Assembly (NCBI GenBank): GCA_011390775.1
Contig: JAABRS010000002.1
Coordinates: 1-44,646, forward strand
From: Clostridia bacterium
GTDB lineage: Bacteria > Bacillota > Clostridia > Tissierellales > Dethiosulfatibacteraceae
Direction: 5' to 3'
Length of the DNA: 44,646 nucleotides
In this document: positions 32,005 through 33,488 of the stretch, piece after piece
How positions within the stretch are numbered: the first letter of the stretch is position 1
How the letters are laid out: each line of letters begins with the position of its first letter
Position numbers and translations under genes: made by a program
Notes under the pieces: generated by a model
Database searches by the model: none
The model's input: only the letters and a program-made list of their open reading frames with translations
Told to the model about the DNA's origin: nothing

Positions 32005-32934
32005 TTATATTTTTTTTGCTATACGTAATTTTGCACTTCTCGATCTAGGATTGCGATTTACTTCTTCATTTGAGGCTTCTATAGGTTTTTTAGTAATAAT
32101 TTTTATTTCTCTTTCCTTGTCACAGTTACAAATTGGTTGTTTTGGTGGACAAACACAGTCTTTTTCAAGCCATTTAAATGTGTTTTTTACTATTCTATCT
32201 TCTAAAGAATGAAAGGTTATAACGCAAATTATTCCGTTTTTTGCTAATTTACTTACAATTTTTTTGATAGTTGGTTCAATTACATCTAACTCTTTATTTA
32301 CTTCTATTCTTATTGCTTGAAAAGTTCTTTTTGCTGGGTGAGGACCGTCAATTCTAGCTGATTTTGGAATTGCTTTTTTTATTATTTCTACTAGATCAAA
32401 GGTAGTTTCTATGAATCTATCTTCTCTTTCTTTAACAATGAATTCAGCTATCCTATCTGCCCATTTTTCTTCACCATATTTATATATAATTTCTCTTAAT
32501 TCATTTTTTGTGTATCCATTTACAACATGTCTTGCTGTAAGATTCTGTTCTATATTCATTCTCATATCTAATTCATAGTTTTCGTTATATGAAAATCCTC
32601 TTTCCGGATTATCCAACTGATATGAAGAGACTCCAAGATCTATTAAAGCTCCATCAATTTTATCTATATTTAAATCTTCTAATACTTTATCAATATTCAA
32701 AAAATTATTTTGTACAACAGTAATGTTTTTATAAATTTCTTTTTCTTTTTCAAAGTTTTTTATAGCTTCAATATCTCTATCAATCGCTATCACTTTTCCT
32801 TCAAAAGCTCTTTTAGATATTTCTTTTGTATGACCTCCCCCACCAAGAGTACAGTCAACATACACACCATTTTTTTTAATTTTTAATCCTTCTATAATCT
32901 CATCTAACATTACCGGTTCATGATAAAAATCCAT
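32005..32934 (-). CDS. rsmH: 16S rRNA (cytosine1402-N4)-methyltransferase RsmH (MraW)
   Basis: HEPVMLDEIIEGL, DCTLGGGGHTKEI, ALIDLGVSSYQLDNPERGFSY, ITFHSLEDRIVK. Confidence 0.98.
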   Translation of the reverse strand: MDFYHEPVMLDEIIEGLKIKKNGVYVDCTLGGGGHTKEISKRAFEGKVIAIDRDIEAIKNFEKEKEIYKNITVVQNNFLNIDKVLEDLNIDKIDGALIDLGVSSYQLDNPERGFSYNENYELDMRMNIEQNLTARHVVNGYTKNELREIIYKYGEEKWADRIAEFIVKEREDRFIETTFDLVEIIKKAIPKSARIDGPHPAKRTFQAIRIEVNKELDVIEPTIKKIVSKLAKNGIICVITFHSLEDRIVKNTFKWLEKDCVCPPKQPICNCDKEREIKIITKKPIEASNEEVNRNPRSRSAKLRIAKKI

Positions 32935-32943
32935 ATAAGCCTC

Positions 32944-33381
32944 CTACAAGTCTAATCCCAAATCATTCATTTTTTCTGCAATTTCATTGAAATCCATATC
33001 CTCTGCATTTGAGTAAATATCCCAATTCTTTTTATTCCAAATTTCTATTCTATCTAAAACACCGATAATAACAGTTTCTTCATTCATTTCGCTATATTCT
33101 CTTAAATTAGGTGGTATTAATATTCTCCCTTGTTTATCTATACTGCATTCATTAAAGCCTGATAGAAATCTTCTCGAAAAGTATCTGTGCTCAGTACTAA
33201 GAATTGATAATTTTTTTAACTTAGCAGTAAACTCTTTCCAAGTATTTTCAGGATAGATAAGCAAACTTTTATCAAATCCTTTTCCTAAATAAAATTTTTC
33301 TCCTAAATCATATCTAAATTTAGCAGGTATAATTAATCGTCCTTTTTTATCTATGTTGTGAAAAAATTCTCCTGTAAACAT
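32944..33381 (-). CDS. mraZ: Transcriptional regulator MraZ
   Basis: Two AbrB-like halves: NIDKKGRLIIPAKFR and SIDKQGRILIPPNLRE. Confidence 0.97.
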   Translation of the reverse strand: MFTGEFFHNIDKKGRLIIPAKFRYDLGEKFYLGKGFDKSLLIYPENTWKEFTAKLKKLSILSTEHRYFSRRFLSGFNECSIDKQGRILIPPNLREYSEMNEETVIIGVLDRIEIWNKKNWDIYSNAEDMDFNEIAEKMNDLGLDL

Positions 33382-33385
33382 AATC

Positions 33386-33436
33386 TACCACCTTATGGGT
33401 ATATTATACCACTTGATGGGTTTATTATACCACTTT
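33386..33436 (-). repeat. 21-bp tandem repeats in the mraZ promoter / MraZ box candidates
   Basis: Plus strand: TACCACCTTATGGGTATATTA (33386-33406), TACCACTTGATGGGTTTATTA (33407-33427), partial TACCACTTT (33428-33436). Minus-strand GTGG cores at 21-bp phase. Confidence 0.8.
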
Positions 33437-33452
33437 AATTAAAAAAAGACAA
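33403..33452 (-). promoter_or_regulatory. Tandem mraZ promoters P1 and P2
   Basis: P1: TTGTCT (33452-33447) -17 nt- TATAAT (33429-33424), TGG extended -10; P2: second TGG-TATAAT (33408-33403) exactly 21 bp downstream. Confidence 0.65.
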
Positions 33453-33488
33453 AAAAAAATCAAGTATATACTTGATTTTTTTAAAAAA
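33451..33488 (-). terminator. Terminator after lgt
   Basis: A-run + ATCAAGTATATACTTGAT palindrome + T-run immediately after the lgt stop. Confidence 0.8.

Follow-up and report, generated by a model that had tools for sequence, protein, structure and literature searches.

Few bacterial regulators are as conserved as MraZ, whose gene stands first in the operon for cell division and the synthesis of the cell wall. How the MraZ ring chooses its DNA is only now being solved, and this on direct repeats. The locus described here raises the question whether such a ring may also be served by boxes which alternate in orientation. The window, that is, the whole stretch of 44,646 nucleotides that was analysed, carries on its minus strand a mraZ gene coding for 145 amino acids (32944..33381; Pfam PF02381, 6.4e-38, with the domain found in two stretches of the protein). 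The gene heads a division and cell wall cluster, with rsmH and the remaining cluster genes behind it. The next open reading frame (32005..32934, minus strand), which from its position and from family knowledge we take to be rsmH (mraW), served as control.

Upstream of mraZ the minus strand reads GTGG TATAATAAA CCCA TCAA GTGG TATAATATA CCCA TAAG GTGG TAGATT ATG. GTGG occurs three times with a period of exactly 21 bp and CCCA stands in between; the whole array (33388..33433) has the layout GTGG-N9-CCCA-N4-GTGG-N9-CCCA-N4-GTGG. Its five cores are found at offsets of 0, 13, 21, 34 and 42 bp and are oriented forward, reverse, forward, reverse, forward. Box 1 (33430..33433), box 3 (33409..33412) and box 5 (33388..33391) are the forward GTGG cores, and box 2 (33417..33420) and box 4 (33396..33399) are the reverse CCCA cores, which read TGGG on the plus strand. 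An earlier note on this DNA had described tandem repeats of MraZ-box-like cores; its coordinates and the 21-bp spacing of GTGG, TATAAT, TGGG and the Shine-Dalgarno sequence match the sequence, and the TGGG of opposite orientation which it placed between the same-strand cores is present at 33420-33417 and 33399-33396. The 21-bp repeat is genuine, and since it is conserved in relatives it is beyond doubt. It is better read, though, as a series of alternating inverted boxes (GTGG ... CCCA). Given the nucleotide frequencies in the upstream region, a chance match to all 20 fixed letters has a probability of about 5e-17 per position. The near-palindrome GTGGTATAATATACCCA, with up to three mismatches allowed, matches twice in the window, both times within the array, against 0.13 expected matches, and elsewhere in the genome no match was found at zero or one mismatch. 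Immediately upstream of the array, between lgt and mraZ, a perfect palindrome AAAAATCAAGTATATACTTGATTTTT with a run of T behind it (33455-33480) is probably the terminator of lgt.

The array is interwoven with the signals for transcription and translation, as the earlier note had seen. The proximal -10 hexamer TATAAT (33403..33408) is extended as TGGTATAAT, and the TGG of box 3 doubles as its TGn. Box 5 lies within the Shine-Dalgarno sequence AAGGTGG (33388..33394), which ends 6 nt before the ATG at 33381. From the spacing we infer that transcription from this promoter starts 7 nt after TATAAT, at position 33396, which is the A of box 4. A further TATAAT is found distally (33424..33429), likewise directly preceded by TGG, and 17 bp upstream of it lies a -35-like hexamer TTGTCT (33447..33452) which matches by consensus only; the pair scores 10/12. 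In the earlier note both hexamers were considered as promoters. As a conserved feature this does not hold, because the distal TATAAT occurs in this genome alone, the relatives having TGCAAA, AACTTT, CGTTTT or CATATT in its place, whereas the proximal TATAAT never changes. As the surrounding cores are invariant and the distal spacer is variable, we regard the distal hexamer as a local feature. Together with TTGTCT it may form a second promoter in this organism only.

How widespread is this arrangement? We screened 60 relatives and all 249 genomes of the order, and scanned 84,980 genomes for the exact layout. Among the 60 relatives the nearest seven mraZ genes have the same layout, and nearly all of the remaining mraZ genes that could be fetched have GTGG direct repeats at 10 bp. 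In the whole order the array is found at the mraZ start of 30 genomes, in 29 of them exactly and in the 30th with a single mismatch, so that the 21-bp register, for which the earlier note had proposed a check in relatives, is indeed conserved. All 30 belong to two families, the Dethiosulfatibacter family (f1) and the Sedimentibacter family (f19). Cultured members of this clade are Sedimentibacter saalensis, S. acidaminivorans, S. hydroxybenzoicus and Dethiosulfatibacter aminovorans. Wherever an assembled mraZ start region was found in these families, it has the layout; their genomes lacking the array have no complete mraZ in the assembly. Six other genomes of the order have two-mismatch matches only, at places other than the mraZ start. 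The exact scan of the 84,980 genomes returned 89 stretches, 25 of which precede mraZ and are all from the Dethiosulfatibacter/Sedimentibacter clade; outside this clade no array at mraZ was found in the scan. The remaining stretches do not precede a mraZ start and many of them are 21-bp tandem repeats. Alternating GTGG...CCCA arrays with a 21-bp period, away from mraZ, were observed in the Bacteroidetes MAG RH-23may17-974 and in Bacteroidales RUG10554, in many copies on several contigs per genome.

Conservation was computed on the 24 distinct arrays of the clade. Neither the 20 core letters nor the proximal TGGTATAAT change in any of them, an invariance which is partly built in because the group was defined by the pattern itself, although just one deviating array was seen. 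The sequence TGnTATAAT, which marks a sigma-A extended -10, is likewise present in 24 of 24. Variation is seen in the nine-letter spacer that separates the distal GTGG from CCCA (0.5 to 1.3 bits of information). When the arrays are compared in pairs, mean identity is 1.00 in the cores but falls to 0.55 in the distal spacer, 0.53 in the flank upstream and 0.47 at the fourfold-degenerate sites of mraZ. Box 5 lies 6 to 8 nt from the start codon, depending on the genome, while its distance to the rest of the array is fixed; this argues that it serves both as a box and as a Shine-Dalgarno sequence. In Sedimentibacter-family genomes the half array is found only at mraZ, twice per genome, apart from one stray match. 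A wider MraZ regulon was considered and rejected, as neither this genome nor the Sedimentibacter family yielded an additional near-exact array; that the array is unique in the genome points to mraZ and its operon as the sole target.

The upstream regions of mraZ in other Clostridia look different. We compared 107 of them with the 24 clade arrays. Pairs of GTGG at 10 bp occur in 95 of the 107 and in none of the 24, which agrees with the contrast to known MraZ operators drawn in the earlier note. Conversely, CCCA is found anywhere in only 9/107 regions and GTGG-N9-CCCA in a single one, compared with 24/24 in the clade for both, and the complete alternating array is absent from all 107. The direct boxes have the consensus AAAGTGGT, which resembles the (AAAGTGKN3)3 site of Mollicutes (PMC5282649). 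Because the clade lacks direct repeats at 10 bp, its array is a variant that probably works like an MraZ operator and not the classical one. The direct layout would be the ancestral one, replaced in the clade by alternating inverted boxes. Direct-repeat operators of other Tissierellales and Clostridia share with the array the GTGG cores upstream of mraZ, and some have TATAAT between the boxes. In six relatives TATAAT directly follows a GTGG box, often filling the 6-nt gap to the next box, and GTGGTATAATGTGG is found in five upstream regions with TATAAT inside the direct boxes. Since TATAAT abuts GTGG in these direct-repeat operators, a promoter within MraZ boxes occurs in other Clostridia too.

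A possible intermediate toward the alternating layout may be seen in 15 of the 95 direct-repeat operators, where CCC[AT] stands 7 to 9 bp beyond the last GTGG (0.1 expected). This motif usually precedes a Shine-Dalgarno sequence of the TGG type, so that it could be either an inverted box or part of a hairpin which hides the Shine-Dalgarno sequence. The direct-repeat operators differ from the array also in that they often go along with AGGAWWW-N14-GAA, a motif which we take to resemble the sigma-H consensus. It is found upstream of mraZ in many relatives, where in most cases 12 to 16 bp separate its GAA from the first box; with GAA[TA] the motif is present in 35 of the 107 regions against 3.1 in shuffles, but in none of the 24 clade arrays. 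Its presence suggests developmental control of the division cluster in those Clostridia. A strong match to the SigH protein was not found in the Dethiosulfatibacter family, and the Sedimentibacter family has a weak match only. Loss of sigma-H as the whole cause of the operator change was rejected, because in another family (f3), which has no strong SigH match, three members keep direct boxes; this loss would therefore be insufficient.

The MraZ protein itself has changed in the clade. A model of the monomer (pLDDT 83) matches MraZ structures that have been solved, among them those determined by cryo-EM in complex with promoter DNA, and the motif D-x-x-x-R is present in both halves, with D11, R15, D82 and R86 invariant in 130 of 130 aligned sequences. 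MraZ identity is 53% between the clade and the others, 69% among the others and 75% within the clade; for RsmH from the same genomes the values are 58% between the clade and the others and 60% among the others. At positions which are otherwise nearly invariant, the clade has the fixed changes T33G, E47T, P59S and A76F, that is, 4 of 68 such sites compared with 1 of 112 in RsmH. The clade is supported in both trees (100/99), and its stem branch has a length of 0.76 for MraZ against 0.21 for RsmH, the MraZ tree being midpoint-rooted and subject to a long-branch warning. MraZ thus evolved unusually fast on the stem branch of the clade and RsmH did not. Most Sedimentibacter-type MraZ proteins have the DNA loops S/T-F-D-x-K-G-R and S-F-D-K-Q-G-R. 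Residues 9 and 80 are identical to each other in 71% of the sequences versus 4% elsewhere, and residues 10 and 81 in 83% versus 28%, a likeness that was noticed post hoc, concerns two position pairs and is seen mainly in the Sedimentibacter family, being partial in the Dethiosulfatibacter family. This is suggestive of a convergence of the two DNA loops within the clade. The change of the operator, the absence of the sigma-H-like promoter and the acceleration of MraZ fall on the same branch. As all sequences share one ancestor, this is a single coincidence and not a series of repeated events; the changes of operator and promoter are linked in time with the acceleration of MraZ, which is no proof of cause.

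We suggest that the array is an autoregulatory mraZ operator in which alternating inverted boxes are arranged around one sigma-A extended -10 promoter; judging from layout and conservation, we consider this probable, with binding and repression by MraZ as part of the proposal. The five cores would span about -37 to +8 of the promoter TGGTATAAT, at a mean pitch of one core per 10.5 bp. One MraZ ring could lie along the array, each subunit reading one box per helical turn. Since the spacing alternates between 13 and 8 bp, an even helical pitch requires that the core is off-centre: if each box is taken to be centred about 1.25 bp beyond the middle of its GTGG, in the downstream direction, and CCCA is treated as a TGGG of the opposite strand, an even spacing of 10.5 bp would result in both orientations. 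The ring would then keep the same face of the helix as on direct repeats, with every second box reversed. Once bound, it would cover the extended -10 together with the start of transcription and the stretch that codes for the Shine-Dalgarno sequence, and MraZ would repress its own promoter and hence the division and cell wall operon. Against a ring on alternating boxes it must be said that direct repeats are what one expects a ring of Cn symmetry to read. A flipped box may nevertheless be readable with the halves exchanged, because each MraZ subunit is built like a dimer, from two halves that resemble each other. That a ring of MraZ indeed reads alternately oriented boxes on a continuous face of the helix, and that the MraZ of the clade was remodelled for such reading, is a more tentative proposal, to which we give less than an even chance; the increased likeness of the two DNA loops would fit it.

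Other readings have to be weighed against the MraZ operator. Dimeric repressors typically have inverted repeats lying over a -10, and a different repressor of this kind could control mraZ from the near-palindrome GTGGTATAATATACCCA, while MraZ no longer binds and diverged once freed; the fast divergence of MraZ in the clade and the loss of the classical direct boxes would fit. Yet GTGG is the core of MraZ boxes, the half array is confined to mraZ in this genome and in those of the Sedimentibacter family, one stray match aside, and the unpaired fifth box holds the register. Moreover, D-x-x-x-R is kept in both halves of MraZ and identity within the clade is 75%, so that the protein is still constrained. 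We regard this alternative as unlikely. An acquisition of mraZ together with its operator from another lineage, instead of a remodelling in place, we also consider improbable. In favour of a transfer, the clade RsmH nests within the order and MraZ branches far off, but the operator is absent from other lineages in the scan of 84,980 genomes. A donor was not found among the 399 genomes of the phylum either, where the best MraZ outside the clade is only 55% identical to the query, a hand-typed consensus-like sequence and not a natural protein.

Control at the RNA level, with leader hairpins formed by the inverted repeats governing translation, comes to mind as the repeats adjoin the Shine-Dalgarno sequence. 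The transcript predicted from the conserved promoter begins, however, at the last A of CCCA, so that most of the array would be untranscribed. The RNA does not fold better than shuffled sequences (the whole array has z -0.59 and the leader 0.85), no Rfam match was obtained and the bases flanking the cores do not retain pairing. A hairpin or riboswitch was accordingly dismissed, and control of this kind is very improbable. Least probable of all is that there is no operator, and that the extended -10 promoter and a GTGG-type Shine-Dalgarno sequence are alike by chance. It is true that TGGTATAAT and AGGTGG are each functional on their own account. But the distal GTGG and the two CCCA have no role for promoter or ribosome and still never change, while the distal spacer varies, and the register is constant over 46 bp in all 24 arrays.

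The proposed MraZ operator can be compared with those already described. In Mollicutes MraZ binds a (AAAGTGKN3)3 site (PMC5282649). These operators likewise have a GTG(G) core, lie directly before mraZ and have on average one box per helical turn, but they are direct repeats at 10 bp whereas the array alternates at 13 and 8 bp. The site of Burkholderia cenocepacia MraZ consists of four 7-nt repeats with 3-nt spacers downstream of the -10 (PMC7761207). There too, a series of repeats lies close to the start site, in the promoter which drives the division and cell wall genes; the repeats are 3′ of the -10, however, while in the array the -10 is inside and the boxes are inverted. Cryo-EM structures show MraZ on its own promoter and on a promoter with four boxes (PDB 9r4j, 9sz7). 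Inverted MraZ sites were not found in our literature search, which covered part of the literature. With the operators of dimeric repressors the array shares a near-palindrome over the promoter, but it is continuous, has five boxes with the last one unpaired, and is followed by a gene whose product is an oligomeric ring protein.

If the proposal is true, an oligomeric regulator has switched from direct to alternating operator symmetry. A clade in which all boxes alternate and in which MraZ carries a few fixed changes would be a natural test of what determines operator symmetry in MraZ.
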